Virus record (IMG/VR): IMGVR_UViG_3300044998_000191
Coordinates: 1-23,427 of that record
From: a virus
DNA length: 23,427 bases
Direction: 5' to 3' (one strand)
A model generated the notes under the pieces. It had not been told where the DNA came from. It searched no databases and was given only the letters and a program-made list of their open reading frames with translations. This document shows, in pieces, positions 1,470 through 19,783 of this stretch. The translations under genes were made by a program, and so were the position numbers. The number at the start of each line of letters is the position of its first letter. Position 1 is the stretch's first letter.

Positions 1470-1522
1470 TTCCAAACCGCCCGGGTTTTTATACTGGCAA
1501 GCCGACAAAGGTAAGGTAGACT
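1470..1522 (+). promoter_or_regulatory. Promoter cassette copy 1 (upstream of recT)
   Basis: A sigma70-like pair CTGGCA (1494-1499) and TAGACT (1517-1522) is separated by exactly 17 nt. The spacer ends in AAGGTAAGG. A dyad AAACC-N5-GGTTT lies at 1474-1488, with its left arm starting 20 nt before the -35. The same arrangement recurs at 2650, 10553 and 19735, which is the main evidence that it is functional. The dyad followed by T residues could instead act as a weak terminator for the methyltransferase transcript. Confidence 0.75.
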
Positions 1523-1534
1523 GCTTACATGAAC

Positions 1535-1553
1535 GCGGGGCCGAACACCCCGC
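1535..1553 (+). promoter_or_regulatory. 5'-leader hairpin with CCGAACA loop
   Basis: GCGGGG (1535-1540) pairs perfectly with CCCCGC (1548-1553) around the 7-nt loop CCGAACA. It would lie within the first ten or so nucleotides of the transcript predicted from the promoter at 1494-1522. An AAAAGGAAACC ribosome-binding stretch follows before the ATG at 1576. Equivalent hairpins with other stem sequences sit in the same place at 2711, 10615 and 19792. Confidence 0.65.
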
Positions 1554-1575
1554 CCAAACCAAAAGGAAACCAGCC

Positions 1576-2373
1576 ATGACCGACCAAACACTATTCGCCC
1601 ACTGCCTTTCCCGCATCGGCGTGATTCTGGACGTGAAGGCCGCCGACCTGAAGGCGGCCGGGGCGACAAAGACGGCCGCCGCGGCTATGGCTTGGCTTTC
1701 GGACCCTGACCGCGCCTTTGACGTGGTGACCCGGTGCCGCCCGGAATCAGTGGTGCAGGCGATTTTCGATTTCGCGGCCATGGGCGTGGCCCCGGACCCG
1801 ATGGTGGAATGGGGATACTTCCGCCGCCGCGGCGACACAGCCCGGCCCGGGCTTGGCTACAAGGGCGTTATTTACCTGTTGACCAAAGATCCAGCCGTGC
1901 ATTCGGTGGACGTTCAGGCCATCTACGCGGGCGACACGGACGGCCACGGCGGGCCCGCTAAGGTTATCCTTGGCACCAGCCCGCGCATTGAACACGCGGT
2001 GAACCTTGAAGCGGCCCGGGGCGATACCGAAGCCGCCGCAATTGTGGGCGTTTACGGTGTGCTGCACTACCGCAACGGCGGCCCGCCCAAGATTGAATAC
2101 ATGACCCGGGCACAGGTGGAACAGGTGCGGGCGGAATCAGCCGACCCACAGGGCGACCCGTGGCGGCACTGGTGGGCCGGTATGGCCCGCAAAAGCGTGG
2201 TCCACCGCCTGCGCAAATATGTTCAGGTGGCCCCGGAACTGGCCCACGTTCTGGCCAGCGACGAAAGCGGGGAATATGCCCCGGCCGCGCCAGCCCCGGA
2301 ACCGGCGGCGGCAAAATCGAAACTAGATACACTGGAAGAAGCCGCCGACCTGTACGGCGCACCGAAAGGGTAA
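1576..2373 (+). CDS. recT: RecT-family single-strand annealing recombinase
   Basis: This 265-residue protein matches the RecT family, which coats single-stranded DNA and anneals it to complementary strands during phage recombination and repair. Visible hallmarks are the GYKGVIYLL segment near residue 95, a central stretch with VGVYGVLHYRNG, the EYMTRAQVEQVR segment, and the end-of-domain helix GMARKSVVHRLRKYVQVAP leading to LASDE. The tail (about 230-265) is Ala/Pro-rich. The ATG at 1576 is chosen because an AAAAGGAAACC ribosome-binding stretch precedes it and the region further upstream is the promoter/leader cassette; an open frame reaching to 1423 would run through that cassette. No obvious RecE or lambda-type exonuclease is adjacent; the coiled-coil protein at 3127 may be a partner. 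Confidence 0.92.
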   Translation: MTDQTLFAHCLSRIGVILDVKAADLKAAGATKTAAAAMAWLSDPDRAFDVVTRCRPESVVQAIFDFAAMGVAPDPMVEWGYFRRRGDTARPGLGYKGVIYLLTKDPAVHSVDVQAIYAGDTDGHGGPAKVILGTSPRIEHAVNLEAARGDTEAAAIVGVYGVLHYRNGGPPKIEYMTRAQVEQVRAESADPQGDPWRHWWAGMARKSVVHRLRKYVQVAPELAHVLASDESGEYAPAAPAPEPAAAKSKLDTLEEAADLYGAPKG

Positions 2374-2376
2374 GCC

Positions 2377-2577
2377 ATGAAGCCACCCACCATGCCACGC
2401 GCCCGGCAGGCACGCTTCCAACACCGCCAGCGGGTGAACATCACCCCGCGCGAACTGGCGCACCTGCGCAAAGCCGCCCGCCGGTCAAACGCCATGTATT
2501 GGCTGTTTGTGATCGGGCCGCTGCTGGTGTTTGCCGCCATGCTGGCGCTGGCCATGGCCCCGCTGTTTATGAAATAA
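2377..2577 (+). CDS. Small single-pass membrane protein
   Basis: This 66-residue product begins 3 nt after the recT stop, with AAAGGG a few bases upstream of its ATG. Residues 1-38 are strongly basic (many Arg/Lys) and residues about 40-65 are a hydrophobic segment (MYWLFVIGPLLVF onward) able to cross a membrane once. The basic amino-terminal part would be expected to stay in the cytoplasm. It is the last gene of the first promoter unit and is followed directly by two hairpins and a terminator. The family is not recognised. Small membrane proteins expressed early from phages may alter the host envelope or superinfection, but nothing here proves that. Confidence 0.75.
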   Translation: MKPPTMPRARQARFQHRQRVNITPRELAHLRKAARRSNAMYWLFVIGPLLVFAAMLALAMAPLFMK

Positions 2578-2640
2578 CCGCGGCTGTTCACCGCGGACGC
2601 GCCCGGGGTGGTTTATTTCCTTTCCCGCCCCGGGCTTTTT
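2578..2640 (+). terminator. Rho-independent terminator after the recT unit, with a preceding hairpin
   Basis: GCCCGGGG (2601-2608) pairs with CCCCGGGC (2628-2635) over 8 bp with a 19-nt loop, followed by five T residues (2636-2640). Just before it, starting right after the stop codon, CCGCGG (2578-2583) pairs with CCGCGG (2591-2596) around CTGTTCA. It separates the recT unit from the next promoter at 2674. Confidence 0.88.
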
Positions 2641-2649
2641 CATACCCCG

Positions 2650-2702
2650 TTCCAAACCGACCGGGTTTTTGTATTGGAAAGCCAACTAAGGTAAGGTACA
2701 CT
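2650..2702 (+). promoter_or_regulatory. Promoter cassette copy 2 (upstream of gene 2767)
   Basis: TTGGAA (2674-2679) and TACACT (2697-2702) are separated by 17 nt ending in AAGGTAAGG. The dyad AAACC-N5-GGTTT is at 2654-2668, again with its left arm 20 nt ahead of the -35. It follows a strong terminator directly, so it must supply transcription for the long replication operon. Confidence 0.8.
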
Positions 2703-2710
2703 GATGGCAT

Positions 2711-2731
2711 GGCCGGGTAGAACGCCGGGCC
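2711..2731 (+). promoter_or_regulatory. 5'-leader hairpin with GTAGAACG loop
   Basis: GGCCGG (2711-2716) pairs with CCGGGCC (2725-2731), with one bulged G, around the loop GTAGAACG. It starts at about the predicted transcription start, as in the other cassette copies. The loop keeps the shared GAAC; the stem sequence differs from the other copies. Confidence 0.5.
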
Positions 2732-2766
2732 GGAAGTGAACCAAGGGAAACCAAAGGGAGACAGTC

Positions 2767-3069
2767 ATGTATCTCACAATCGTCAGCCTGCACTGCGATA
2801 ACAACGAAAAGCGCAACATCCGGTTCGTGCAGCCTGTGACCAGCTACGACCAAGACGGCACGCCGAATGACAGCGCGATTCTGGACGCAGCAGAGGCTAT
2901 CGCACACGCCGCTCCGGCAGACGCATTTGACGCTTTCGGCCAGAAGGCGCGGAATTGGTTGACAAGCGCCGACTACGACAAGCACGACACGCTCAACGAG
3001 GCACTGGCCACAAGCGGCGGCAAACGCAATCGCGCCGAATCGTTCGAAACGCGCATGGTCGGCAGCTAG
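2767..3069 (+). CDS. Conserved-looking phage protein of unknown function
   Basis: This 100-residue protein starts at an ATG preceded by AAAGGGAGAC. The sequence is soluble, with an N-terminal beta-like stretch (MYLTIVSLHC) and a helical middle rich in Ala/Asp. No family is recognised. It is the first gene downstream of promoter cassette copy 2. Its codon use mixes GAG with GAA, slightly unlike its neighbours, which use GAA almost exclusively. Confidence 0.7.
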   Translation: MYLTIVSLHCDNNEKRNIRFVQPVTSYDQDGTPNDSAILDAAEAIAHAAPADAFDAFGQKARNWLTSADYDKHDTLNEALATSGGKRNRAESFETRMVGS

Positions 3070-3076
3070 GGCTGCC

Positions 3077-3090
3077 GCCTGAACACAGGC
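3077..3090 (+). promoter_or_regulatory. Intergenic hairpin with AACA loop ahead of gene 3127
   Basis: GCCTG (3077-3081) pairs with CAGGC (3086-3090) around AACA, and a second short hairpin GCCGG/CCGGC follows at about 3089-3101. The ribosome-binding stretch GAAAGGAC lies downstream, before the ATG at 3127. The CTGAACAC sequence also occurs in the leader hairpin at 19792. No promoter elements are visible here, so this would be an internal mRNA structure. Confidence 0.35.
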
Positions 3091-3126
3091 CGGGATCTTC
3101 CGGCACCACAACGAAAGGACACTACC

Positions 3127-4146
3127 ATGACTGAACAGACGCAGGACCGCACGGAAGCCATGCTGGCACCGTTCCACCCGCTCCGCGCGGAACTGGCCCG
3201 GCTGGTGGAAGAAAACGCGGCAAAGACTTTTGACCTGACCACCAGCACCGGTGAAAAGGCGTGCCGGTCCCATATCTACGCCCTGCGCTTGAAGAAGGGG
3301 GAAATTGACCGGGTGCGCAAGGCCACAAAGGAAGACGCTTTGCGTTTCGGCCGCCGGGTGGAAGAAGTGGCCAAGGAACTGACCGCCGCGGTTGACGGCA
3401 TGATTGCGGTGCATCAGGGCCCATTAGACGAACTGGAAGCCCGGGAAGCGGCGCGCAAGGCAGCCATTGAGGCCCGCCTTTTGGACCTGCAGGTGGACCC
3501 GCTGGAAGTGTTCGCGGACGCGGCCACGGTCAAGGCTGTTATTGACCGGGTGCGCGCGGTGTCGGTGGATGCCAGTTTCCAAGAATACCAGCAACAGGCA
3601 GCCACGTTGCAAGCCGCCACGCTGCACCAGCTTGGTGTCAAACACGCGGCCATGGTCAAGCATGAAGCCGAACAGGCCGAACTGAACCGCCTGCGCGCGG
3701 AAGCGGCCGCCCGTGAAGCGGCGGACCGCGCTGCCAAGGAAGCCGCCGACCGTGAGGCCCGGGAAGCACTGATCCGCAAGGACGCTGAAAACAAAGCACG
3801 CTTGGCCGCCGAACAGGCCGCCGCGCGCAAGGCAGCGGAAGAAAAGGCCAAGGCAGATGCGGCGTTGGTGGCTGAACGAGAAGCACGCCTGAAGGCCGAA
3901 AAGGCCGCCGCCGACGCCAAGCGCAAGGCCGCTGAAGCTGAAGCCAAGCGCATTGCCGATGAACAAGCCGCAAAGGCCGCGGAAGAAAAGCGGGCGGCCA
4001 ACGCCCGGCACCGGGCCAAGGTTTTGAAGACGGCCACCGAAGCCGCCATGGCGGCGGTTGACGATTACACCCACCCGGCCTTGGTGGCGGCCATTATGGA
4101 AGCCGCGGCCGCAGGCAAGATTCCGGGCGTGACGGTCAACTTCTAG
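3127..4146 (+). CDS. Long coiled-coil phage protein, recombination-module associated
   Basis: This 339-residue protein has a structured N-terminal part (about 1-110) containing TFDLTTSTGEKACRSHIYALR and a helix with KKGEIDRVRKATKEDALRFGRRV. A very long Ala/Glu/Lys/Arg coiled coil follows (about 170-305), then a short C-terminal domain ending KIPGVTVNF. Proteins with this N-terminal pattern and a coiled-coil body are commonly found beside recT genes in phage genomes, and a role with the annealing recombinase is the best guess; the biochemical function is not known to me. The start is the first ATG after an AACGAAAGGACACTACC ribosome-binding region. The coiled coil is low in complexity and could mislead similarity searches. 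Confidence 0.8.
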   Translation: MTEQTQDRTEAMLAPFHPLRAELARLVEENAAKTFDLTTSTGEKACRSHIYALRLKKGEIDRVRKATKEDALRFGRRVEEVAKELTAAVDGMIAVHQGPLDELEAREAARKAAIEARLLDLQVDPLEVFADAATVKAVIDRVRAVSVDASFQEYQQQAATLQAATLHQLGVKHAAMVKHEAEQAELNRLRAEAAAREAADRAAKEAADREAREALIRKDAENKARLAAEQAAARKAAEEKAKADAALVAEREARLKAEKAAADAKRKAAEAEAKRIADEQAAKAAEEKRAANARHRAKVLKTATEAAMAAVDDYTHPALVAAIMEAAAAGKIPGVTVNF

Positions 4147-4155
4147 GGGGCGGCC

Positions 4156-4668
4156 ATGCAGGGGTGGGTCCGCCTTTGGCGCGTCTGGACGGCGGCGGGG
4201 GTTTCCGCCGACGCCAAGGCGTGGCTGGTAATGACCCACCTTCTGCTGCACGCCCGGTGGTCGCGTACCTACAACGCCACCTTCGGCTATTGGCTGGAAC
4301 CGGGGCAAACAGACTTGACCACGCCCATGCTGGTGGGGCTTACACGGTTGACAGAAAAGGAAGTCCGCGGTGCTTTGAAGCGGCTGGAAGACCGTTATCA
4401 CACAATCAAGGTGGACACGGTGTGGGGCACCCCGACGGGCGGCGGCAAGGGCAGGGCGGTGCGCGTTATAACTTTTGAACGCTGGCACCTTTACCAAAAC
4501 CCGGCGGAAGCACAGGGCGGGCCACAGGGCACCACCCCGGGCACCAGACAGGGCGGCCAAAGGGCAGCCGAAGGGCAGCCAAAGGGCCGGTCTATAAGAC
4601 TGCAAGAAGGGCAAGAAACGTCAGTCCCGAATCCGGGCGAAGACGTGGACCCATTGAAGTTTGACTGA
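4156..4668 (+). CDS. Winged-helix phage replication-type protein
   Basis: This 170-residue protein begins 9 nt after the preceding stop. Residues about 1-115 follow the pattern of the winged-helix N-terminal domain of phage replisome-organiser proteins: a helix with AKAWLVMTHLLLHA, then YWLEPGQTDLTTPML, then LTEKEVRGALKRLEDRYHTIKV, then a beta wing ending VITFERWHLYQNP. In that family the domain binds origin DNA and helps load the replicative helicase. The remainder is Gly/Gln-rich and probably disordered, and the usual C-terminal helicase-interaction domain is not evident. It lies in the replication operon upstream of the DnaA-like gene. It could also be a transcription regulator with the same fold. 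Confidence 0.7.
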   Translation: MQGWVRLWRVWTAAGVSADAKAWLVMTHLLLHARWSRTYNATFGYWLEPGQTDLTTPMLVGLTRLTEKEVRGALKRLEDRYHTIKVDTVWGTPTGGGKGRAVRVITFERWHLYQNPAEAQGGPQGTTPGTRQGGQRAAEGQPKGRSIRLQEGQETSVPNPGEDVDPLKFD

Positions 4669-4682
4669 CCGACGGGTGAACC

Positions 4683-4913
4683 ATGAGTGGCGGACTCTTT
4701 GAGCCGAACGACGCCCCGGGCGAAATCAGCCCGGACTTGTACCCAACCGACTTTGACCCGGCGGCGGTGGAAGTGCCGCCAGTGCCGGACCACCTGCAGA
4801 CCCTTTACACGTTTGAACAGTGGCGGGCCATCTACATAGGCGACCTGCAGGCCGCCCACGAACGCAAGGAAGCCGCCGCGCGCCGGAAGGAAAGGGCCAG
4901 CCGTGGAACCTGA
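4683..4913 (+). CDS. Small acidic-to-basic phage protein, unknown
   Basis: This 76-residue protein starts at an ATG preceded by GGGTGA. The first half is acidic and Pro-rich, the middle has LQTLYTFEQWRAIYIGDLQAAHERKE, and the tail is strongly basic. No family is recognised. It overlaps the next gene by 11 nt. Confidence 0.6.
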   Translation: MSGGLFEPNDAPGEISPDLYPTDFDPAAVEVPPVPDHLQTLYTFEQWRAIYIGDLQAAHERKEAAARRKERASRGT

Positions 4914-5166
4914 ATTCACGTGGCACGCGGCCAAGCGGATTGTGGAACGTGGACTGGACGGCGCGGCGATTCTTGCAAAGGCCCGGGACGCCATGGCGGC
5001 GGGTATTGGGGCAACCAAGCCGGGCCAAGTGGAGTATGGCCGCCTGCGCCTAATCATTCACGAACACCGCATAATCACAGTGTTTACCCGGAGCACGGGC
5101 GGCGGGCCACGGCGGAATGAACGCGGCCGGGGCAAGCGGCAACGGAAAAGGCGTGGGACCGAATGA
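4903..5166 (+). CDS. DUF4258-like protein
   Basis: This 87-residue protein uses a GTG start inside the end of the previous gene. The core (about 4-65) has FTWHAAKRIVERGL near the N-terminus and LRLIIHEHRIITVF further on. This combination of a helix with His and Glu-Arg-Gly and a later beta hairpin resembles the DUF4258 family of small, toxin-like or RNase-fold proteins. The C-terminal 20 residues are almost all Arg, Gly and Lys and may bind nucleic acid. There is no obvious antitoxin partner next to it. The assignment is by pattern only. Confidence 0.6.
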   Translation: MEPEFTWHAAKRIVERGLDGAAILAKARDAMAAGIGATKPGQVEYGRLRLIIHEHRIITVFTRSTGGGPRRNERGRGKRQRKRRGTE

Positions 5167-5780
5167 ACCTTCCACCGGAATTGCGCGCCTTTGCCATCAC
5201 CGTGGCGTTGGTGCCACCCGACCAATGGGACGCCTTCGTGGTGGCGGCCGGGCGGCACGTTTCCGGCACGCCGGACAACGTGGCCCACGCGGTGAACGCC
5301 TTTGCCAATCAATGGACCCGCAAACAGCGGGCCCCCAACAGCCACGTGGCGGCGCTGCTGGCGTTGTTGGACCCGGCAAAGCGGGACCGGCTTACGGCGC
5401 AATCGTGGACCGTCAAAAAGTGGGTGCATGGCAACCGGGCGGCCATGATAAAGGCCGCGGCGCAGGAAGCCACCCGGCGGTGGCATGAACGCATCAACTC
5501 CGGGTGCAAAGAGTTTCTAGCCTTGCCCCAAGCCGAACAGGCGGCGGCGTTGGACGCGGCCGCCCGGGCGTTGCTGGATCTGGTGGACACCAAAGAAGGA
5601 TTGCTACTGCCAGCCACAACGGGGTGGCAAGTAGTGCAAGCCACCCGCGACGCCGCGCGCCGCCGGGTGCTGATTCCGTGCGGCGGTTTGTCCACCACGG
5701 ACTTGGGCGGCGCGCTGGTGATGGCGCACAAAACCGGAACACTGGAAACGCTGTTGACAGAATGGGCCGCCAGACTGTAA
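5163..5780 (+). CDS. Hypothetical phage protein
   Basis: This 205-residue protein starts with an ATG overlapping the previous stop (ATGA). It is mostly alpha-helical, with Ala-rich helices (FAITVALVPPDQWDAFVVAAG, and later AALDAAARALLDLVDTKEG) and a C-terminal segment with GGALVMAHKTGTLETLLTEWA. No catalytic motif or family is recognised. It sits between the DUF4258-like and VRR-NUC genes in the replication operon. Its stop codon is embedded in a TAAGGTAAGGTA sequence that provides the ribosome-binding site of the next gene and resembles part of the promoter spacer motif. Confidence 0.7.
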   Translation: MNLPPELRAFAITVALVPPDQWDAFVVAAGRHVSGTPDNVAHAVNAFANQWTRKQRAPNSHVAALLALLDPAKRDRLTAQSWTVKKWVHGNRAAMIKAAAQEATRRWHERINSGCKEFLALPQAEQAAALDAAARALLDLVDTKEGLLLPATTGWQVVQATRDAARRRVLIPCGGLSTTDLGGALVMAHKTGTLETLLTEWAARL

Positions 5781-5789
5781 GGTAAGGTA

Positions 5790-6356
5790 ATGCCGCGCAA
5801 CAAATACAACCGCACGGTGCAGGACGGGGCAAAAGAAAATGCCGTGTCTGGCCAGTGCGAACTGATTTTGTGTGCCAGTGACGTGGTGCAGCCCCAACAC
5901 GTGGCGACGTGGCCCAAGGCCATGCAGTGCCGGGTGCGGGGCTTCTACCTGAAAACGCAAATGAAGAAACGCAAGTCCGTGGATCTGGCGACGTTCAAGA
6001 AGACGCAAACGCAAAGCCGCGGCATCCCTGACCTGCTGGTGCGCCTGAACCATTGGCCCACGGCGGTGTGGCTTGGGGTGGAACTGAAGAACCGGCGGGG
6101 CACGGGCAACCCGACGCCGGAACAGCGGCTGCTGTTTGACGCGGGCGCGGTGCTGGTGCTGGATTCGGCGGACGCCCTGTGGGCAAGAATCATGGAACTG
6201 GACAAACAACTAAGGGGAATCAATGGGCAAGGAACGAATTCCGCTGTGGGCATCGGAAGTGAACAGCCGGGCAATCCGCGCGCTGAAGGACAAGGCGGTT
6301 CAGGTGGTGCTGTTGATCGGTCCGCCGGGCATCGGCAAAAGCCGGTTGATTCGTGA
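5790..6356 (+). CDS. VRR-NUC domain nuclease (probable Holliday-junction resolvase type)
   Basis: This protein carries the VRR-NUC form of the PD-(D/E)XK nuclease fold. The visible motif is GIPD with D81, then GVELK with E98 and K100, then Q112 in PTPEQRLLF, followed by GAVLVLDSADALW. These enzymes cut branched DNA such as four-way junctions; in phages they usually sit with replication and recombination genes, as here. The domain is complete by residue 132. The last 45 or so residues are Gly/Ser-rich and are encoded inside the next gene, a 134-nt overlap. A TAA in the neighbouring frame at 6211-6213, 10 nt before the next ATG, suggests that a one-base shift removed the natural stop. Confidence 0.83.
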   Translation: MPRNKYNRTVQDGAKENAVSGQCELILCASDVVQPQHVATWPKAMQCRVRGFYLKTQMKKRKSVDLATFKKTQTQSRGIPDLLVRLNHWPTAVWLGVELKNRRGTGNPTPEQRLLFDAGAVLVLDSADALWARIMELDKQLRGINGQGTNSAVGIGSEQPGNPRAEGQGGSGGAVDRSAGHRQKPVDS

Positions 6357-7077
6357 GTTTGCAAAGCCCGGCGATTTGGTTTTGGACCCATGCCCGGATG
6401 ATTACAGTCCGGCAGCTTTAGACGCGGTTCTACTGGAAGACCGCCGGGTATTTGCCACGGCGTTGACCAGCAACGAATTTCATTCCTTCCCGCCCAAGCT
6501 GCGGACCCGGCTTGTGGGCGGCGCGGTGGTTCAGCTTGAACCATGGCCCCTGCACGAACGCCAACGCTTTTTCCGTTCGATTTGCGCGGCGGCAGGTGAA
6601 GACTTGGTGGCGCAGGTGGCCGCGGCCATGGTGACACCGGCCGAACTGGTTGGCGCGGCCATTACGCTTTCCGCTGCCATACCCATGGGCGCGGTGGAAA
6701 CGGCCCGGGCGCTAAACGGGCTGGTGCCGAATTCACTTACCATCATGGGGCGGATTTTGCCGGACGCCATTATCCATGAAGTGTGCGAACGCTTCGGGGT
6801 CCGCGAAGCGGACCTGAAGGGGCCAAGCCGCACACGCGGTTACGCCTACCCGCGGCACGTGGCCATGTACCTGCACACCCTGTTGACCGGGCTTACACTG
6901 AATGAAATTGGTGCGCACTTTGGCAACCGCGACCACAGCACCGTGTTGCACGCCAAAGCCAACATAGCCGGGCGGATGTTGACGGACGCCCGGGTGCAAC
7001 AGGACGTGGAAGCCATCAAACTGCGCTTGGGGGCGCGAATGGGCAAACGTGAACTATGGGCAAGGGAACCAAAATAG
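6223..7077 (+). CDS. DnaA-like replication initiator: P-loop ATPase plus DnaA domain IV
   Basis: This 284-residue protein has a Walker A motif GPPGIGKS at residues 33-40. A sensor-1-like stretch (FATALTSN) is followed by LRTRLVGGAVVQLEPWPLHER, as in DnaA/Hda AAA+ modules. A clear DnaA DNA-binding domain occupies about 183-265, with YPRHVAMYLHTLLTGLTLNEIG, FGNRDHSTVLHA and the helix-turn-helix before it. In bacteria that signature contacts the DnaA box. DnaA domain I is absent and the Walker B region is poorly conserved, so ATP hydrolysis is uncertain. A strong ribosome-binding site (AAGGGG, 5 nt spacing) supports the start. In the replication operon it probably recognises the phage origin, or competes at or recruits the host initiation apparatus. 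Confidence 0.88.
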   Translation: MGKERIPLWASEVNSRAIRALKDKAVQVVLLIGPPGIGKSRLIREFAKPGDLVLDPCPDDYSPAALDAVLLEDRRVFATALTSNEFHSFPPKLRTRLVGGAVVQLEPWPLHERQRFFRSICAAAGEDLVAQVAAAMVTPAELVGAAITLSAAIPMGAVETARALNGLVPNSLTIMGRILPDAIIHEVCERFGVREADLKGPSRTRGYAYPRHVAMYLHTLLTGLTLNEIGAHFGNRDHSTVLHAKANIAGRMLTDARVQQDVEAIKLRLGARMGKRELWAREPK

Positions 7078-7973
7078 AGTGGGCGCACAACACCCTGAAT
7101 TTCTGGATTGGCTGCACCGTGGTTTCCCCGGGGTGCGCGAACTGTTACGCGGAAACACAGGACGGCCGCTACCACTGGACTAGCCAAGGGTGGGGCGCTG
7201 GAAGGCCGCGCAAGCGCACGGCCCCGGCGACGTGGGCCAACCTGCGCAACTGGCACAAACAAAACGTGGCGGCCGGGCGGCGGGAACGTGTCTTCGTCAA
7301 CAGCCTGTCTGACTTCTTTGACGCGGACCCGGCGGTGCCGGACGCATGGCGCGCGGAAGCGTGCGCACTGATGGCCGAATGCACCAGCTTTGACTACCTG
7401 CTGGTCACCAAGCGCCTGAACGAACATTGCATATTCTGGTGCCAGTGGTTGACCGACCGGGGCGTGCGCTTTGCCCTGCTGGCATCGGTGGAAGACCAAC
7501 AGCGGGCAGACGAACGAATCCCCAAGCTGTTGACCATCCCGGCGACGTGGCACGGAATCAGCGCCGAACCGCTTTTGGGGCCGGTGGACTTGGCCCGGTG
7601 GTGTGGCTATGGGTTGAAGCCCGGCAACGGTGTACCGTACCGGCAATTCGTGGACGACACTTCATACCGGGAATACTTCAAAAGCGACCCGCCGCCGCGT
7701 TCCCTTGATTGGGTGATTGTAGGCGGCGAAAGCCACCCAAAGCCCACCAAGGCGCGGATCTTTGACCGGGCGTGGGGCAAGGCGTTGGCCGATCAATGCA
7801 CGGCCGCCGGTGTGGCGTACTTCTTCAAGCAGGAAGGAAGCCACGTTGCCGGGCTTGGCGGCGTGCCGACAACCAACAACGACAAGGGCCACGACAAAAG
7901 TTTGTGGGCACCATGGATGGTGCAGCAATTCCCCAAAGGCATGGCCATTTCAGAAGGGGAACTCCGTGTCTAA
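7056..7973 (+). CDS. DUF5131 / phage Gp37-Gp68 family protein
   Basis: This 305-residue protein starts with the family signature: TKIEWAHNTLNFWIGC, then VSPGCANCYAE. The cysteines at residues 20, 27 and 30 form a possible metal or iron-sulphur ligand set. It continues with the typical VFVNSLSDFFD, YLLVTKRL, ISAEPLLGPVDL, DWVIVGGES and AGVAYFFKQ segments. The family is frequent in phages and has a radical-SAM-like barrel pattern; its reaction is not established to my knowledge. It overlaps the DnaA-like gene by 22 nt and the following gene by 8 nt, so it belongs to the same operon. Confidence 0.88.
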   Translation: MGKGTKIEWAHNTLNFWIGCTVVSPGCANCYAETQDGRYHWTSQGWGAGRPRKRTAPATWANLRNWHKQNVAAGRRERVFVNSLSDFFDADPAVPDAWRAEACALMAECTSFDYLLVTKRLNEHCIFWCQWLTDRGVRFALLASVEDQQRADERIPKLLTIPATWHGISAEPLLGPVDLARWCGYGLKPGNGVPYRQFVDDTSYREYFKSDPPPRSLDWVIVGGESHPKPTKARIFDRAWGKALADQCTAAGVAYFFKQEGSHVAGLGGVPTTNNDKGHDKSLWAPWMVQQFPKGMAISEGELRV

Positions 7974-10551: not shown

Positions 10552-10552
10552 T

Positions 10553-10604
10553 TCCAAACCGCCCGGGTTTTTATATTGGAAAGCGCACTAAGGTAAGGTA
10601 CACT
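10553..10604 (+). promoter_or_regulatory. Promoter cassette copy 3 (upstream of gene 10658)
   Basis: TTGGAA (10576-10581) and TACACT (10599-10604) are separated by 17 nt ending in AAGGTAAGG. The dyad AAACC-N5-GGTTT is at 10556-10570, its left arm 20 nt ahead of the -35. The following CTGATGGCAT matches copy 2. Confidence 0.8.
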
Positions 10605-10614: not shown

Positions 10615-10629
10615 GGGGCCGAACACCCC
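10615..10629 (+). promoter_or_regulatory. 5'-leader hairpin with CCGAACA loop
   Basis: GGGG (10615-10618) pairs with CCCC (10626-10629) around CCGAACA, the same loop as at 1541-1547 but with a shorter stem. It begins near the predicted transcription start. The ribosome-binding stretch AAAAGGAAACCAGCC before the ATG at 10658 is identical to that of recT. Confidence 0.55.
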
Positions 10630-13059: not shown

Positions 13060-13075
13060 AAAGGGCGCACCAGCC

Positions 13076-13093
13076 GCCGGGTAGAAACCCGGC
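13076..13093 (+). promoter_or_regulatory. Leader hairpin with AGAA tetraloop before terS
   Basis: GCCGGGT (13076-13082) pairs perfectly with ACCCGGC (13087-13093) around AGAA. AAGGAAAAG follows as ribosome-binding site for the ATG at 13109. It belongs to a set of six AGAA-closed hairpins in the structural region. Confidence 0.7.
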
Positions 13094-13108
13094 CAAGGAA
13101 AAGCCGCC

Positions 13109-13735: not shown

Positions 13736-14073
13736 CCGAAGCCGTTTACATCGATAGCCGCCCACACCCGCTTGCGCCTGCCGCGCTGCCATGCCGCTTG
13801 TGGATTGCGCGCACGCCGGACGGTGTGCATTTCAGTGCGGCCACGGACAACACAGGCCGCCCGTCAGATATGATTGGCGTGGAAGTAACGCTGGAAGAAG
13901 CCCGCACCTTCTTGCGTGAAGCGTTGGCGTTTTTGGGGGGAAGCATGACCCCACGCGCCAAGCTGATTGCAATGGTGCTGGTGGCCGCGGCGCTCCTCGC
14001 ATTGGTGGTGGCCACAACGTGGCCGTTGATAGTGCGCGACTACAGGGCTGTGGCGGGATGGTGGGGGTGGTAG
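13732..14073 (+). CDS. Membrane-anchored small protein with a possible internal start
   Basis: This 113-residue protein starts at GTG overlapping the terS stop (GTGA). Residues 1-70 are soluble, with RLWIARTPDGVHFSAATDN and EVTLEEARTFLREAL. Residues about 78-100 are a hydrophobic transmembrane segment (LIAMVLVAAALLALVVATTW), and the last ten are rich in Trp. An in-frame ATG at 13945 is preceded by GGGGGGAAG and would give a 42-residue peptide consisting mostly of the membrane segment. No family is recognised. Confidence 0.62.
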   Translation: MTEAVYIDSRPHPLAPAALPCRLWIARTPDGVHFSAATDNTGRPSDMIGVEVTLEEARTFLREALAFLGGSMTPRAKLIAMVLVAAALLALVVATTWPLIVRDYRAVAGWWGW

Positions 14074-14242
14074 ATGGAATGGACGTTTACCGCCCAATGA
14101 GGCGGGAACAGGGGCGCAAATGAACGAAGCGGCGGGATCATGCCCGCGCAAAAAAGCCCGGCGCAGACCCGCACGTAAACTGTGATTGGATAGCCCGCAC
14201 CGGCGTGACCCGCTGGCGCGAACTCAAGGGGACGCTGAACTA
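14074..14242 (+). other. Stretch of tiny overlapping ORFs, possibly a decayed gene
   Basis: Three very short frames are chained by ATGA overlaps (ATGs at 14074, 14098 region and 14120). The longest, 14120-14185, encodes 21 mostly basic residues. A separate frame without a start codon reads CDWIARTGVTRWRELKG up to a TAA at 14241-14243 and looks more like real protein. This pattern suggests one or two small genes broken by frameshifts. Nothing here can be assigned. Confidence 0.3.
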
Positions 14243-14518
14243 ATGACCACCTGTAACCTATGCGGCAACCCATGGGCGAACCACGGCACCGCGTGCCCGC
14301 CTGTGGTCAAGGCCGACAAGCCACCGGCCACGGTCTGGATTCCCGACCGGATGCTAAAAGCCGCGGACTATCCGGCGGACGGCGTGTTGCCAAATTGCGG
14401 CTGGCAGGTGTTGCCGTCATGGGTGGTGGATTTCCTGATTTACAGCGGCTTTGACCGGTACAAGCCTGTGTCCGTGAATCACGGGCACGCCACACAGGCA
14501 ACCTATTTCAACCAATGA
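14243..14518 (+). CDS. Small protein with zinc-binding-like N-terminus
   Basis: The ATG at 14243 overlaps the upstream TAA. The 91-residue product opens with CNLCGNPWANHGTACPP, a compact Cys/His cluster that could bind zinc, then has a Trp-rich C-terminal half (GWQVLPSWVVDFLIYSGF). No family is recognised. AGGGG lies 12-14 nt upstream, a slightly long spacing. It overlaps the next gene by 4 nt. Confidence 0.6.
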   Translation: MTTCNLCGNPWANHGTACPPVVKADKPPATVWIPDRMLKAADYPADGVLPNCGWQVLPSWVVDFLIYSGFDRYKPVSVNHGHATQATYFNQ

Positions 14519-14754
14519 CCAAACGGCGCAAGCATCTTCGGCCACGTGTCATTGCCCGGGACGGGCTGGTGTGCGGGGTGTGCGGCAAGAATTGCGCGGC
14601 ACCAGCGGACACCGGATGGACCACCAGACGCGAAATCGCGAAGGCCGCGAAGGCGGTCGCCGACTGGTACGACAGAGACGGCAGCGCTGGCGGTGCAGCA
14701 GACCCGTTTGAGCACCTCGACGCCCTGCTGGCGCAACTGGGCGCTGAAGGCTGA
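14515..14754 (+). CDS. Probable truncated HNH-type protein
   Basis: This 79-residue frame begins with MTKRRKHLRPRVIARDGLVC, then GVCGKNC. That resembles the opening of phage HNH endonucleases (R...RDG..C..CG). The catalytic His-Asn-His part and the second Cys pair that should follow are absent; residues 35-79 are an unrelated Ala/Asp-rich helix. HNH genes beside terminase genes are common in phages and help packaging, but this product lacks the active site. It may be a decayed gene or a small zinc-binding protein. Confidence 0.5.
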   Translation: MTKRRKHLRPRVIARDGLVCGVCGKNCAAPADTGWTTRREIAKAAKAVADWYDRDGSAGGAADPFEHLDALLAQLGAEG

Positions 14755-14772
14755 AAGGGTGAAAGGGTGACC

Positions 14773-15279
14773 ATGTTCAAGCGTCTGTTGGACCGGGTGG
14801 CCGTTTGGCTGGTGCATCGGGCGTTCAGGCGGCCGCCCGATTTCGTCATTGGCGGCAGGGCAAACCCCTATATGCAACGCTGGTGGATGTTGCCACGCAA
14901 TCCGGTGTTCAACATCTACGTCCACCGCATCCTTCGGCCCGATGATGACCGGGCGCTACATGACCACCCGTGGCCGTGGGCAAGCTATTTGGTGTGCGGT
15001 TCATACGCCGAAATCACGGCCCGGCCGAACAACAAAACCAGCCAACCCCACGGTGACCTGTGGCTGACGGTCTACGGGCGCGGTTCATTCCGGGTCCACC
15101 GGCCACGCTTTGCCCACCGGCTGGTGCCGCGTGACGGTGAAGTGTGGACGGTGTTCATTACTGGACCAAAGATCCGTGCGTGGGGCTTCCTGTGCCCCGA
15201 CCGGTGGGTCCACTGGCGGCGGTTCACAGCACCAGACGATAAAGGCGCGATAGGGAAAGGCTGTGATGGCGACGTTTGA
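14773..15279 (+). CDS. Cupin-like phage protein
   Basis: This 168-residue protein shows a pattern found in a phage family with a cupin-like barrel: YMQRWWMLPRNPVFNIYVHR, then RPDDDRALHDHPWPWASYLV, a later HRLVPRDGEVWTVFITGP, and WGFLCPDRWVHWRRF at the end. His63 and His65 in HDHPW are likely metal ligands. The function is unknown; it might be a small-molecule or modified-base enzyme. The ATG at 14773 is preferred because GAAAGGG lies 5 nt ahead; an in-frame GTG at 14767 is possible. It overlaps the next gene by 14 nt. Confidence 0.75.
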   Translation: MFKRLLDRVAVWLVHRAFRRPPDFVIGGRANPYMQRWWMLPRNPVFNIYVHRILRPDDDRALHDHPWPWASYLVCGSYAEITARPNNKTSQPHGDLWLTVYGRGSFRVHRPRFAHRLVPRDGEVWTVFITGPKIRAWGFLCPDRWVHWRRFTAPDDKGAIGKGCDGDV

Positions 15280-15553
15280 TGCGATTTTGAAACGCGCCCG
15301 GTGCTGGCATTGCCTGCGCTACGGGCTTGAACGCCGGGCCACCAGCTTGGCGTCCGCGGCCATTGACACCACGGCGGCCGTGCCGGTGCGTATCGTTTGC
15401 GGCCGGTGCGGTGCGGCGCGAGAGTTTGCCGTGCCGGTCACCATGGGCCCGGCCGGGGTTGCAATCGTGGAACGGCAATGGCTGTGGATTGTCCACCAGC
15501 GCGCCCGGCTGGTGTGTCTGCTGATGGCGCTGGCGCTGCGCGGGGCGGCATGA
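15266..15553 (+). CDS. Small zinc-ribbon-like protein with hydrophobic tail
   Basis: This 95-residue protein carries two CxxC pairs, CWHC near residue 14 and CGRC near residue 48, the spacing of a zinc ribbon. The end is hydrophobic (RLVCLLMALALRG) and could touch the membrane. The ATG at 15266 follows GGGAAAGG; the GTG at 15263 is also possible. It overlaps terL by 4 nt, so the two are likely co-translated. No family is recognised. Confidence 0.62.
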   Translation: MATFDAILKRARCWHCLRYGLERRATSLASAAIDTTAAVPVRIVCGRCGAAREFAVPVTMGPAGVAIVERQWLWIVHQRARLVCLLMALALRGAA

Positions 15554-17085
15554 CGTGGCCGCCGGACTATGCAGCGGCCCGGGCCGAACGCCTGAAACGA
15601 CTTCGGGCCATCCGCCGTGACCCAAAGGTATTGGCCGCGGCATTGATTTACTACCGCACCCGCCCGGTGGAATTCATAGAACATTGGTGCATCACGTTTG
15701 ACCCGCGGCGCGACGGGGCGAAGACAATCCCGTTTGTGTTGTTCCCTAAGCAACGCGAATTCGTGGAATGGTTGGTGGAACGGTACACCAAGCGGGAAGA
15801 CGGCGTGGTGGAAAAGGCGCGTGATATGGGTGCCACGTGGCTTTGCTGTGCCGTGGCGGTGTGGCTGTGGTTGTTCCACCCGGGCGTGAAGGTGGCATTC
15901 GGAAGCCGCAAAGAAGACTTGGTGGACAAGCTAGGCGACCCCGACAGCATTTTTGAAAAGCTGCGCCTGCTGTTGCGCCACCTGCCGCCGGAACTCTTAC
16001 CAAAGGGTTTCAGGCACGCGGACCATGACCACTTCTTGAAGCTGGTGCAGCCTGTGAACGGGGCCACCATCACCGGGGAAGCTGGCGATAACATCGGCCG
16101 CGGCGGCCGGTCGTCGGTTTACATTCTTGACGAAGCGGCGCATATCGAACGCCCGGAACGGGTGGACGCTGCCCTTGACGACAACAGCGATTGCAAAATC
16201 TACGTCAGCACGCCCCATGGCATGGGTAACCCGTTTGCCCGGAAGCGGCACGGCGGCAAATACCCGGTGTTCACCTTCCGTTGGCGCGACCACCCGGCCA
16301 AGACACAGGACTGGTACAACGCCGAAAAGGCCAAACGCGACCCGGTGAACATGGCCCAAGAAGTGGATTTGGACTATGAAGCATCGGTGGAAAACATCTG
16401 CATACCGGCCACGTGGGTGGCCGCGTGCCGTGGGTGGTCCGGTATCAAACGCCGGGGTGTGCGGGTGGCAGGGCTTGACGTGGGCGGCGGCGCGGACTTG
16501 TCGGTTTTTGTGGTCCGGCAAGGCCCGCACGTGGATATGCCGGTGTCATGGAATGACCCCGACACCATCAACACCGCGAACTATGCCGCGGCGCTGATGG
16601 ACAAACAGCGGGCGGCCGCCCTGAATTATGACGTGTACGGCATCGGCACGGGCGTGATGGCGCAACTGAAACGCCTTCCCAAAGTGCGCAGCCGCGGCAT
16701 CAACACAGGCCAGCCGCCCACGGAATCCAAGTGGCTGGACGGCAAAACCGGCCGCGAAAAGTTTGTGAACCTGAAGGCGGAACTGTGGTGGATCTTGCGG
16801 GACCGCGCCTACAAAACATTTATGCACCTGCTGTGGGTGACCGGTGAAGGCGGGGCACAGTACCCCGAAGACGAATTACTTTTGCTTCCCGACCACGAAG
16901 CCCTGTGCCGCGAGCTTTCCACGCCACGGTGGTTCACCACACCGGCCGGGAAGATTCAGATTGAATCGAAAGATGAACTGAAGAAACGCGGCGTGAAAAG
17001 CCCCGACTTTGCGGACGCCGTGGCGCTGGCATTTGCCCCGATTTCCGGGCAGGTACGGGCGACAGAAATCAGCGGATTGATTTAG
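15550..17085 (+). CDS. terL: Terminase large subunit
   Basis: This 511-residue protein is the ATP-driven packaging motor and nuclease. The ATPase domain has an adenine-binding region with FPKQREFVEWL, a Walker A variant in EKARDMGATW (about 88-97), Walker B YILDEAAHIE (about 191-200) with catalytic Glu, and the coupling motif VSTPHG (about 219-224). The RNase H-like nuclease domain starts with AGLDVGGGADLSVF, with Asp310 as a metal ligand, and ends with SPDFADAVALAFAP, where Asp486/Asp489 would complete the site. The start at 15550 (ATGA overlap) is chosen over the longer open frame from 15397, which runs through the previous gene. Confidence 0.95.
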   Translation: MTWPPDYAAARAERLKRLRAIRRDPKVLAAALIYYRTRPVEFIEHWCITFDPRRDGAKTIPFVLFPKQREFVEWLVERYTKREDGVVEKARDMGATWLCCAVAVWLWLFHPGVKVAFGSRKEDLVDKLGDPDSIFEKLRLLLRHLPPELLPKGFRHADHDHFLKLVQPVNGATITGEAGDNIGRGGRSSVYILDEAAHIERPERVDAALDDNSDCKIYVSTPHGMGNPFARKRHGGKYPVFTFRWRDHPAKTQDWYNAEKAKRDPVNMAQEVDLDYEASVENICIPATWVAACRGWSGIKRRGVRVAGLDVGGGADLSVFVVRQGPHVDMPVSWNDPDTINTANYAAALMDKQRAAALNYDVYGIGTGVMAQLKRLPKVRSRGINTGQPPTESKWLDGKTGREKFVNLKAELWWILRDRAYKTFMHLLWVTGEGGAQYPEDELLLLPDHEALCRELSTPRWFTTPAGKIQIESKDELKKRGVKSPDFADAVALAFAPISGQVRATEISGLI

Positions 17086-17137
17086 CCGGTTGCCGACACC
17101 ACGGCGCGGCGCTACGGTATGACCACAAGGGCACCCA

Positions 17138-18676
17138 ATGCCGGAACACGGTTACAGCTATTTTTTTGGTTCACCTTACGTCAACAAGGTGGCCGAATTC
17201 GCCAAGCTGCGCGACACTTTCGCGGGCAATGAGCGTGTAAAAGACGCGAACACCGTGTATCTGCCGCAGCCCGGCGGCATGAACGACGCCAATTATGCCA
17301 AATACAAGGCGCGGACGTTGTTCTATCCGGTCATTGAACGCACGGTGCGCGGTCTGTTGGGCATAGTGTTTCGGGTGGCCCCGGTGTTCACGTTGCCCGG
17401 GCCGCTGAAGGCGTGGCAAGATTCCATGACACCGGAAGGCGACTCGATCATGGAAGCGTTTCGCGTGGCCATCCGCGAAAACCTGCATATGGGCCGGTGT
17501 GGCATCCTGTTGGACCTGCCCGAAGACGCCCCGGTCAACGCCATGCCCTTTGTGTCCATGTATGCGGCTGAAAATATCACCGCGTGGGAGCGCCGGTACA
17601 TCAAGGGCCAGCGGCGGCTAACGCGCGTGATGCTGCGCGAACAGACCGACACGGACGGCGACGATCAAGGCCGCTTCCTTGAACTGATTTTGGACACCAG
17701 CGCGGCAACCCCGGTGTACCGCGTGAAGAAGTGGACTGTGAAATTCACGCCCGGGAAGACGCGCGGCCGCTTGGAAGTGGCAGCCCTATCCGTCGCCGAC
17801 CACACCCCGGTTGTGAACGGCAAGACGCTGGACTACATCCCGTTTTATTTCATAGGCCCTTACGACAACAAACCTGACCTTTGCAAGTCCCCGCTGCTGG
17901 ATCTGGCGGACGCCAACCTGCACCACTACCAGCTACAAGCCGACTACCGCCAAACGCTTTACATGGTGGCGCAGCCAACCCCGTACATGATTGGCGATAT
18001 TCCAGACGACAAAGTGCCAAACAAGATTGGCGCGGGCGTGTTCTGGACCCTGCCTTCGGAAGTGACCGATATTGGCATGTTGGAGTTCAGCGGCGCGGGC
18101 ATCGGTGCTTTGTTGGACGCCCTGACACGTTGTGAAGAATACATGGCGGCGCTTGGTGCCAAGCTGGTACACCGCCAGACACAACCGGAAACCGCGGAAG
18201 CCGTGAAGACGAACAGCCGCGATGAACTGTCAGTGATTGAAGCCGTTGTGCAAAGTACGCGGGACGCCTTCAAGCTGGCCATCAATGACGCGGCCAAGTG
18301 GGTGGGCGCGAGCGCCAAGGGTGACGTGGCGGTGGACACGGACTTTGCCGAAGGCCGCATGGACCCGGCCATGTTGACCGCCCTTTTCCAGACCATGCAA
18401 GCGGGCGGACTAAGCCGGGAAGTGTACCACCGGAATCTGCAGCGCGGCGATATTATGCCGCCGAATCGGACGCTGGCCGAAGAAACCGCCGCCGTGGAAC
18501 AGGAAGCCGCCGAACGGCAAGCCAAGGCGCAGGAAGCCATGGCCGCGCAACAGGACGCCATGGGCACCGCCGGTGACTTGGAAGACGGCGACGAAGACGA
18601 ACAGGAAGGCAAGCCCGCGGCGAAGCCGCCGGGCAAGGGCAAACCGCCCAAGGCACCAAAGGGCAAGAAGATTTAG
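17138..18676 (+). CDS. Portal protein, DUF4055 type
   Basis: This 512-residue protein forms the ring through which DNA enters the head. It follows the DUF4055 portal pattern: YVNKVAEFAKLRDTFAGNERV, YAKYKARTLFYPVIERTVRG with a following LLGIVFRVAP, IRENLHMGRCGILLDLPEDA, a central YIPFYFIGPY, then the helical SPLLDLADANLHHYQLQADY and SRDELSVIEAVV. The last 90 residues are a coiled coil followed by an acidic then Lys/Pro-rich tail. The position directly after terL and before the scaffold gene is the standard head-gene order. AAGGG precedes the ATG. Confidence 0.9.
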   Translation: MPEHGYSYFFGSPYVNKVAEFAKLRDTFAGNERVKDANTVYLPQPGGMNDANYAKYKARTLFYPVIERTVRGLLGIVFRVAPVFTLPGPLKAWQDSMTPEGDSIMEAFRVAIRENLHMGRCGILLDLPEDAPVNAMPFVSMYAAENITAWERRYIKGQRRLTRVMLREQTDTDGDDQGRFLELILDTSAATPVYRVKKWTVKFTPGKTRGRLEVAALSVADHTPVVNGKTLDYIPFYFIGPYDNKPDLCKSPLLDLADANLHHYQLQADYRQTLYMVAQPTPYMIGDIPDDKVPNKIGAGVFWTLPSEVTDIGMLEFSGAGIGALLDALTRCEEYMAALGAKLVHRQTQPETAEAVKTNSRDELSVIEAVVQSTRDAFKLAINDAAKWVGASAKGDVAVDTDFAEGRMDPAMLTALFQTMQAGGLSREVYHRNLQRGDIMPPNRTLAEETAAVEQEAAERQAKAQEAMAAQQDAMGTAGDLEDGDEDEQEGKPAAKPPGKGKPPKAPKGKKI

Positions 18677-18715
18677 CGCGGGCGGACCCGCGCGGGCGCG
18701 GCCAAGAATGGCCGC
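18677..18715 (+). promoter_or_regulatory. Two leader hairpins before the scaffold gene, one with AGAA loop
   Basis: Right after the portal stop, CGCGGG (18677-18682) pairs with CCCGCG (18687-18692) around CGGA. Next, GCGGCCA (18698-18704) pairs perfectly with TGGCCGC (18709-18715) around AGAA. The GAAAGG ribosome-binding site of the scaffold gene follows. Neither hairpin has a T-tract, so they do not look like terminators. Confidence 0.68.
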
Positions 18716-18730
18716 TATGAAAGGTGGTCT

Positions 18731-19603
18731 ATGTTTATTCAGGACGTGCGCCAGAAGGCGCTGAATCACGGGGGCTTTGACTACAACCATGGCACCATGT
18801 TTCTGGCCCCGGAAGGCGACGGCGGCGCGGGTGGTGCGGGTGGTGCCGCGGGCTTCCAGCCGCCGGACCTGACCAAAGCCGAAGCCAAGGCGTGGCTTGA
18901 ACAGCAGGTGAAGGCGGCCACGGACGGGCTGGTGAAGAACCGGGACGCCATCCTTGCCGAAAAACGGCAACTGGAAGCGGACCTGAAAGCCATCCGCGAC
19001 AAGTATAGCCACCTTGGCGACCCCGACGCGGCGAAAAAGGCGCTGGACCAACTGCGTGACGCCGAGGAGAAGGCGCTTGTAGCCAAGGGTGATATTGACG
19101 GGCTGGTCACGCGACGCCTGAAGGAAACCACCAGCCGGTTTGAAGCCGAACGGGCGGCCGCCAAGGCCGAAGCCGAAACCTTCAAAAAGACGGCCGAACA
19201 GCGCGCGGAAATGGTCCGCAAACTGACGGTGGACCGCGAACTGACAGAAGCCGCCGCAAAGGCTGGCGTCCACCCAACGGCCATTGCGGACCTGCTCAAC
19301 CGCGCGCGTAATGTCTTCACTGTGTCCGATGATGGCAAGATTTCGTGCGTGGACGGCAACGGCGTGCCGATCAACGAACAGGACGGCAAGCCCCGCACAC
19401 CGGCCACGTGGGTGGAAAGCCTGAAGGCGGAAGCCCCGCACTTCTTCCCCGGCGGTTCCGGTGCCGGAAGCCGCGGGGGCAACAGCCCGGGCGGCAACGG
19501 CGACGTGGTGCGACTTGCACCCGGCTACACACAGGAACAATACGAACAGGCCGCGGCGTTGGCGCGCAAGGAAGGCAAGCGGTTGGAGTTTCCGCGCGAG
19601 TAG
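18731..19603 (+). CDS. Probable capsid scaffolding protein
   Basis: This 290-residue protein lies between portal and major capsid genes (with a moron inserted). It has a Gly-rich N-terminal region, a long coiled coil (about 55-175: KAWLEQQVKAATDGLVKNRD onward to the segment with ERAAAKAEAETFKKTAEQR), then a smaller domain with AAAKAGVHPTAIADLLNRA, and a flexible Gly/Ser tail. This composition and position match phage scaffolding proteins, which direct procapsid assembly and then leave. The start at 18731 has GAAAGG upstream; an in-frame ATG at 18797 would trim about 22 residues. Confidence 0.75.
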   Translation: MFIQDVRQKALNHGGFDYNHGTMFLAPEGDGGAGGAGGAAGFQPPDLTKAEAKAWLEQQVKAATDGLVKNRDAILAEKRQLEADLKAIRDKYSHLGDPDAAKKALDQLRDAEEKALVAKGDIDGLVTRRLKETTSRFEAERAAAKAEAETFKKTAEQRAEMVRKLTVDRELTEAAAKAGVHPTAIADLLNRARNVFTVSDDGKISCVDGNGVPINEQDGKPRTPATWVESLKAEAPHFFPGGSGAGSRGGNSPGGNGDVVRLAPGYTQEQYEQAAALARKEGKRLEFPRE

Positions 19604-19620
19604 CACCACCAGAAACATGA

Positions 19621-19651
19621 CCGCCCCGGACAATCCGGGGCGGTTTGCTTT
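19621..19651 (+). terminator. Strong rho-independent terminator after scaffold
   Basis: A perfect 10-bp stem, CCGCCCCGGA (19621-19630) with TCCGGGGCGG (19634-19643), is closed by CAA and followed by TTTGCTTT. It ends the terS-to-scaffold transcript. Confidence 0.9.
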
Positions 19652-19702
19652 GGTGGGCTACGCCTGCCCTTTCATTGCGGCTTTCCACCCGGCCATGTTA
19701 TC

Positions 19703-19731
19703 AGTGCACCGTACCTTTGTTGTGGGGCCAG
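19703..19731 (-). promoter_or_regulatory. Divergent minus-strand copy of the promoter cassette
   Basis: Read on the minus strand, CTGGCC (19731-19726) and TGCACT (19708-19703) are separated by exactly 17 nt containing AAAGGTACGG, like the AAAGGTAAGG of copy 1. TTTATACTGG upstream also matches copy 1, and the downstream ACTGAT, CATGGCCGGGT resembles copy 2. No gene lies on this strand nearby. The transcript would run toward 19621. It could be a vestige or make a short RNA. Confidence 0.5.
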
Positions 19732-19734
19732 TAT

Positions 19735-19783
19735 AAACCGCCGCCAGAATTGTATTGGCACGGGCACTAAGGTAAGGTACAAT
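19735..19783 (+). promoter_or_regulatory. Promoter cassette copy 4 (upstream of gene 19834)
   Basis: TTGGCA (19755-19760) and TACAAT (19778-19783) have a 17-nt spacer ending in AAGGTAAGG. The AAACC element (19735-19739) is again 20 nt ahead of the -35, although the GGTTT right arm is missing. The same AAACC, read on the other strand as GGTTT, lies upstream of the divergent promoter. Confidence 0.8.

Follow-up and report, generated by a model that had tools for sequence, protein, structure and literature searches.

A repeated promoter-like cassette with a lineage-specific spacer in an uncultured phage

PAK_P1-like Pseudomonas phages carry five to six copies of a 41-nucleotide (nt) repeat with the layout TTGACA-N17-TAgAAT, in which 32 of 41 positions are strictly conserved and which is restricted to that clade and a sister clade (PMC4309531). 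Here we describe an element of comparable design, a repeated promoter-like cassette in the virus record IMGVR_UViG_3300044998_000191. This record, a fragment of an uncultured phage with 23,427 bases and a G+C content of 62.6%, was analysed over its complete length and is referred to as the window. Like the PAK_P1-type repeat, the window cassette occurs in several intergenic copies, combines a -35 box, a 17-nt spacer and a -10 box, and is conserved past these boxes. Its sequence is a different one, however: among 50,697 phage records none matched the cassette significantly, nothing meaningful was obtained from plasmid records, and the cassette is thus of the same kind as the PAK_P1/KPP10 repeat but not of the same family. 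While the PAK_P1-type copies are clustered in one putative early region, those of the window are scattered across 18 kb, the head module included. Furthermore, a relative with an exchanged spacer, termed G003, is known for the window cassette but not for the PAK_P1-type repeat. Compared with the systems described so far, it is this clean swap of the spacer with retention of the boxes that appears to be new.

Two other groups of repeats bear resemblance to the window cassette. The promoter-stem-loop cassettes (PeSLs) of T4-type phages (Arbiol 2010; Comeau 2014) are thought to mediate module shuffling (PMC4503421, PMC3950731) and share with the window cassette the presence of repeated promoter and stem-loop modules at the edges of accessory gene blocks and insertions; they stem, however, from an unrelated phage lineage, and the stem-loop beside the window promoter is weak and not conserved. 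Cluster K mycobacteriophages possess SAS and ESAS repeats. The ESAS consensus differs between subclusters, which has been taken to indicate different binding specificities, and in several of the genomes there is one inverted site that lacks a gene (PMC3203893). The window repeat likewise consists of intergenic copies ahead of separate genes, has a consensus that varies with the lineage and includes a lone inverted copy. On the other hand, the SAS/ESAS elements are located at the start codon and include the ribosome site, whereas the window repeat is a predicted promoter at least 50 nt upstream.

The cassette family of the window

Four forward promoter-like sites with -35/-10 boxes at 1494/1517, 2674/2697, 10576/10599 and 19755/19778 are present exactly where an initial annotation of the window had placed them. 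Every one of them has a 17-nt spacer with AAGGTAAGG at its end and an AAACC that starts 20 nt ahead of the -35 box. The boxes had been characterized as TTGGMA-like, a description that suits the -35 of W2 to W4 but not the CTGGCA of W1. A fifth copy, inverted and decayed, had been overlooked.

1474..1522 (+): W1, ahead of recT; dyad AAACC/GGTTT 1474-1488, AT tract, -35 CTGGCA 1494-1499, spacer 1500-1516
1508-1516 and 1517-1522 (+): W1 spacer motif AAGGTAAGG and -10 TAGACT
2654..2702 (+): W2; dyad 2654-2668, -35 TTGGAA 2674-2679, AAGGTAAGG 2688-2696, -10 TACACT 2697-2702
10556..10604 (+): W3; dyad 10556-10570, -35 TTGGAA 10576-10581, AAGGTAAGG 10590-10598, -10 TACACT 10599-10604
19735..19783 (+): W4; AAACC 19735-19739, GAATTGTA tract in place of the right arm, -35 TTGGCA 19755-19760
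19769-19777 and 19778-19783 (+): W4 spacer motif AAGGTAAGG and -10 TACAAT
19678..19737 (-): fifth cassette, inverted and decayed; -35 CTGGCC 19731-19726, AAGGTACGG 19717-19709, -10 TGCACT 19708-19703

The four forward copies belong to one 61-nt repeat family, the largest in the window, with identities to W2 of 84% (W1), 93% (W3) and 62% (W4). The inverted copy (19737-19678) likewise has a 17-nt spacer and is 77% complementary to W2 (2668-2727) over 60 nt; a second comparison gave 84% over 45 nt. It stands back to back with W4, whose AAACC at 19735-19739, counted as a left arm in the initial annotation, doubles as the GGTTT of the inverted copy. The family is real and far above chance: AAGGTAAGG occurs five times in the window, whereas 200 dinucleotide shuffles contained it 0.02 times on average and never more than once. 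The fifth exact occurrence of the motif (5779-5787) has neither a -35 nor a -10 box. It overlaps both the end of a gene, at the stop codon, and the ribosome-binding region ahead of the following one (ATG at 5790), and probably reflects chance or selection for a ribosome site. The cassettes are all intergenic; the gene set used here has six gaps that span 100 nt or more, and four of these are occupied by cassettes. In every forward copy, the leader contains a GC hairpin followed by a ribosome site of the GGAAA/GGGAGA type.

When a match of at least 9 out of 12 positions to TTGACA-16/18-TATAAT was demanded for sigma70 promoters, W4 (TTGGCA-17-TACAAT) was the sole copy listed, with 10 of 12 positions matching. 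The boxes alone are unremarkable; it is their repetition that lends strength to the case. The AT-rich tract abutting the -35 box occupies the position of the UP element in sigma70 promoters. All in all, the repeats are very probably promoter cassettes. A sigma54-type promoter was also considered and rejected: W4 starts with TTGGCACG, which is -24-like, but upon inspection the -12 element proved to be missing in every copy.

Conserved boxes and an exchanged spacer in a related phage

G003 is the record of L100 (IMGVR_UViG_3300048837_001192; 46,344 bases), and its large terminase (TerL) is 56% identical to that of the window. It contains a promoter-like repeat at four places (62, 45324, 45811 and 46279), which consists of AAACGGCCGGGTTTTTGTAA or AAACGGCCGGGGAATTGTAA, followed by TTGGAC, the 17-nt ACCCCAGCGCCACGGGG, TACATT and GATTCC. 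The layout is common to both phages: AAAC starts 20 nt ahead of the -35 and is followed by an AT-rich tract, TTGG-N17-GGTACATTGAT, a leader with a GC hairpin and a small gene. The 17-nt spacing and the TTGG/TACAYT boxes recur in both. A position matrix was built on the window copies only, with the spacer masked, and scored on G003 and on 60 shuffled genomes. The four G003 places took ranks 1-4 with 30.7-33.1 bits, followed by the next site at 12.7 bits, and the best shuffle (n=60) reached 16.1 bits. When the spacer columns were scored alone, the same four places ranked below the 32,700th position. Boxes, spacing and upstream tract are therefore shared between the two phages and the spacer is not. 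In fact, the 3' 12 nt of the two spacers match at 3 of 12 positions, and G003 has an equally repeated CCCC-N8-GGGG in place of AAGGTAAGG. Boxes and upstream tract appear to represent the ancestral promoter. A loss of spacer and dyad in relatives that keep the boxes had been named in the initial annotation as a finding that would refute its interpretation, and by this standard the interpretation is half refuted: in G003, boxes and upstream tract are kept and the AAGGTAAGG spacer is replaced.

The AAACC-N5-GGTTT dyad, which had been put forward as a conserved element, did not hold up as such. W4 and three of the four G003 places have no right arm, and the G003 variant devoid of it (GAATTGTAATTGG) is similar to W4 (GAATTGTATTGG). 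The conserved upstream part comes down to the AAAC at -20 from the -35 box, that is the beginning of the left arm, and the AT-rich tract touching the -35.

Positions 1-127 and 46218-46344 of G003 are identical and form an exact 127-nt overlap, and the contig opens and closes in a cassette. As the end repeats the start over 127 nt, the first and the last cassette place may be one and the same. Such an overlap is the pattern left by an assembler halting at a repeat, in which case the number of cassettes is a lower bound, or else the genome closes there.

Viral contigs were searched with five patterns overall. An exact 14-mer and a loose spacer pattern yielded 93 and 66 hits, respectively, and of those scored with the matrix only L024, a second strain of the window species (99.86% identity over 8,663 nt), carries a cassette. 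Besides G003 and L024, two upstream-variant patterns returned chance matches in unrelated, mostly AT-rich sequence. The sole extra match of the upstream-only pattern, L312, is AT-rich, lacks a repeat family, shares just one weakly matching protein with the window (E = 0.002) and was dismissed as chance. On the whole contigs of 80 relatives defined by terL, a spacer-free pattern detected the cassette in G003 only. It was not found in Dinoroseobacter phage R5C nor in 18 whole bacterial genomes with a related terL, and the strict pattern was absent from bacterial and archaeal genome contigs representing 84,980 species. This distribution, with carriers that are close in capsid protein and TerL and host genomes without the sequence, fits a phage-specific module.

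The spacer as a putative operator and competing explanations

As the best explanation on the whole, and a reasonably probable one, we propose a family of sigma70-type promoters equipped with a lineage-specific operator in the spacer. A module composed of AAAC, AT tract, -35, 17-nt spacer, -10, hairpin leader and ribosome site would have been copied around the genome and would let gene blocks, most of which start with a small ORFan, be transcribed as separate units. The -35 and -10 boxes would be read by host RNA polymerase carrying the housekeeping sigma factor, assisted by the AT tract as an UP-like contact. The spacer would constitute a second, lineage-specific layer (AAGGTAAGG in the window, CCCC-N8-GGGG in G003), namely an operator located between -35 and -10 at which a phage-encoded regulator, preferably a repressor, could switch all units together. 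For a site placed between the two boxes, repression offers the simplest mode of regulation, but activation is also possible. What the sequence itself shows is that the cassette is repeated and has a fifth copy, that boxes and upstream tract are conserved in G003, that the spacer is constant within genomes but not between them, and that the gene block behind W4 is an insertion. From this evidence we infer transcript starts at the sites, their reading by sigma70 and the binding of the spacer by a regulator. Taken by itself, the assignment of an operator function to the spacer is tentative; the motif is lineage-specific, probably selected and perhaps an operator.

The strongest competitor, which we consider possible albeit rather doubtful, holds that plain sigma70 promoters have spread by duplication and that the spacer has no regulator, its constancy resulting from copying, gene conversion or an effect of DNA shape on promoter strength. 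The G003 copies are indeed near-identical beyond the promoter, upstream terminator included, just like recent duplicates, and the spacer is wholly different between the two phages. Within the window, however, the 3' 12 nt of the spacer show 10-12/12 identities in every pair of copies, while identity over the upstream 20 nt goes down to 8-12/20. W4 and the inverted copy retain 10-12/12 of the spacer core, although their flanks have diverged both upstream (8-12/20) and downstream (2-10/12); compared with each other, these two copies match at 8/20 upstream and at 1/5 in the first five spacer positions. Copying of whole cassettes predicts otherwise and fails to explain a core that is kept amidst diverged flanks, which argues that the spacer core is probably under selection in the window genome. 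A conservation of the spacer beyond the needs of sigma70, as already noticed in the initial annotation, is thus borne out within this genome.

Several observations weigh against a regulated promoter family. The copies in G003 are too alike throughout for a test of spacer constraint, and their constancy can be due to recent duplication. Copies W1 to W3 match sigma70 at 8 of 12 positions and go unlisted by the strict scan. The leader hairpins are found in both phages ahead of the ribosome site, but vary in sequence and are, in the window, modestly better than shuffles (z-scores of -0.6 to -1.8). No candidate for the regulator was identified in the window, which is a partial record, and the cassette is known from two lineages only, the window species and G003.

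One protein of the window (6223-7077; 284 amino acids) combines an AAA ATPase-like portion with DnaA domain IV (Pfam Bac_DnaA_C, E = 4.8e-25) and is predicted to be a phage-encoded DnaA-like initiator. As a reader of the spacer this protein found no support, the window containing zero TTWTNCACA boxes. AAGGTAAGG as the ribosome site of a leader peptide was rejected because it would sit upstream of the transcript start; furthermore, W4 has no ATG there.

Our findings suggest a standard phage promoter that carries its own control tag in each lineage. With the spacer swapped in every copy and boxes, spacing and AT tract kept, the two phages would offer a natural experiment on operators diverging with their regulators, a process previously proposed for repeated elements of other phages. 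A bolder version, which we regard as unlikely, is a two-layer code in which the chassis read by the host (-35, -10 and upstream tract) is fixed and the 12-nt spacer core is rewritten per lineage together with its cognate regulator. If true, the regulator of a phage would act on its own dispersed units but not on those of a relative present in the same cell. Proof that the spacer is recognized by a cognate regulator would add to the interest of the cassette.

That the dyad together with a T run forms a weak terminator, which would make the cassette a composite terminator-promoter similar to a PeSL, is highly unlikely. The dyad directly follows the upstream stop codon in W1 (1465) and W3 (10551), and a T run lies behind its right arm. 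The RNA, however, forms a 5-bp hairpin of -4.1 kcal/mol that is no better than shuffles (z-scores of -0.8 to +0.35), not the stable GC-rich hairpin with a T run expected of an intrinsic terminator; a scan for terminators listed none of the dyads, and the loss of the right arm in W4 and G003 described above also speaks against this function. With this weak dyad and the variable leader hairpins, a promoter and a stable stem-loop united in one conserved motif, as in PeSLs, were not found. Moreover, separate strong hairpins precede W2 and W4. The hairpins of the leaders and of the unit boundaries are as follows:

1535..1553 (+): GC hairpin, W1 leader, z-score -1.65
2711..2731 (+): GC hairpin, W2 leader, z-score -1.56
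10615..10629 (+): GC hairpin, W3 leader, z-score -0.62
19792..19812 (+): GC hairpin, W4 leader, z-score -1.79
2601..2640 (+): intrinsic-terminator-like strong hairpin with T run, -25.1 kcal/mol, z-score -4.25, ending the recT unit upstream of W2
19619..19645 (no strand assigned): strong hairpin behind the scaffold gene, z-score -5.43, ahead of W4 and on the downstream side of the inverted copy
21043..21074 (+): hairpin ending the W4 unit ahead of the major capsid gene, -19.7 kcal/mol

Least probable of all is a reading of the sites by a phage-encoded sigma factor, an anti-sigma factor/co-activator or a modified polymerase where host sigma70 alone does not suffice: the boxes of W1 to W3 are off consensus and the strict cassette is present in none of the bacterial genomes searched, but the layout is sigma70-like (17-nt spacing, TTG-type -35, TAnAnT -10), neither a sigma factor nor an RNA polymerase was named in PHROGs and/or Pfam scans of 27 window proteins, and spacer contacts would be expected to persist between relatives, yet are lost in G003. 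Of the two readers suggested in the initial annotation, a modified polymerase that reads the spacer is unlikely as a shared mechanism since G003 keeps the boxes and swaps the spacer, while a lineage-specific phage regulator is possible.

Transcription units, the W4 insertion and gene neighbourhood

As judged from sequence, each forward cassette lies ahead of a separate unit, in accordance with the initial annotation. The W1 unit comprises recT and an open reading frame (ORF) of 66 amino acids and is ended by the hairpin at 2601-2640. W2 precedes an ORFan of 100 amino acids (2767-3069), followed by a packed gene block up to 10551. W3 precedes an ORFan of 103 amino acids and then genes leading into terminase, portal and scaffold. 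A designation as early-type is not supported for W3 and W4: W3 leads into packaging and head genes, and W4 resides within the head module, with the scaffold gene on one side and the major capsid gene on the other. The genes were assigned via PHROG families, except for those of the W4 unit:

65-1465: DNA methyltransferase
1576-2373: RecT
13109: small terminase
15553: large terminase
17138: portal
18731: scaffold
19834..21018 (+): W4 unit, three small genes between scaffold and major capsid genes, without family match
21189: major capsid protein

The gap between scaffold and capsid genes amounts to 1,585 nt in the window, 150 nt in G003 and 77 nt in R5C. This far shorter distance in the two relatives identifies the W4 unit, which is flanked by two hairpins, as an insertion. 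It resembles morons in having a predicted promoter and terminator of its own and in being inserted between two conserved head genes (PMC2147016, PMC7067206) that are adjacent in relatives, and differs in that several window units share one promoter sequence. The unit thus appears to be a moron-like inserted block with its own predicted promoter and would be an example of foreign genes being accommodated in an otherwise conserved head operon by means of a shared promoter module. With regard to a PeSL-type exchange of modules, the W4 unit is an insertion in comparison with G003 and R5C, and no module exchanged between two phages was seen. The middle gene of the unit (20097-20765) has no family match; its product contains AAHELRHGH, an HExxH signature that is zinc-metalloprotease-like as in SprT-type proteins.

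No gene follows the inverted copy, and transcription from there would enter the hairpin at 19619-19645. In L099, an 80% relative, a matching hairpin is likewise located after the scaffold gene, and the corresponding place right behind it is occupied by a minus-strand gene; the L099 contig stops short of where a promoter would lie. In the simplest reading, the window has lost a minus-strand gene like that of L099, leaving the promoter orphaned.

Named phages are only distantly related to the window, with TerL about 40% identical to that of Burkholderia, Rhizobium and other phages and the major capsid protein 49% identical to that of Dinoroseobacter phage R5C. Queries for closer relatives with RecT and the major capsid protein returned nothing besides L024, and an Rfam search of the window gave zero matches. 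L024 is 99.86% identical to the window from position 14765 (L024:437) onward. Its upstream sequence is different (an HNH-like and another small ORF), which places a recombination boundary just before window position 14765.

G003 carries a CRISPR array (L100:5241-5670) of seven 36-nt repeats with spacers of 29-31 nt, two of which are identical; none of the spacers matches the window or the near relatives compared. Just downstream of the array (L100:5730-6965), a compact protein of 411 amino acids is encoded that is Cas12f/Cas12u3-like (PADLOC Cas12u3, E = 4e-33; Cas12f, E = 3e-30) and matches Cas12f-type chains in the PDB at E ~1e-20. The following gene specifies a tyrosine integrase (L100:7183-8472). 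G003 is thus predicted to be temperate and to carry a mini type V system.

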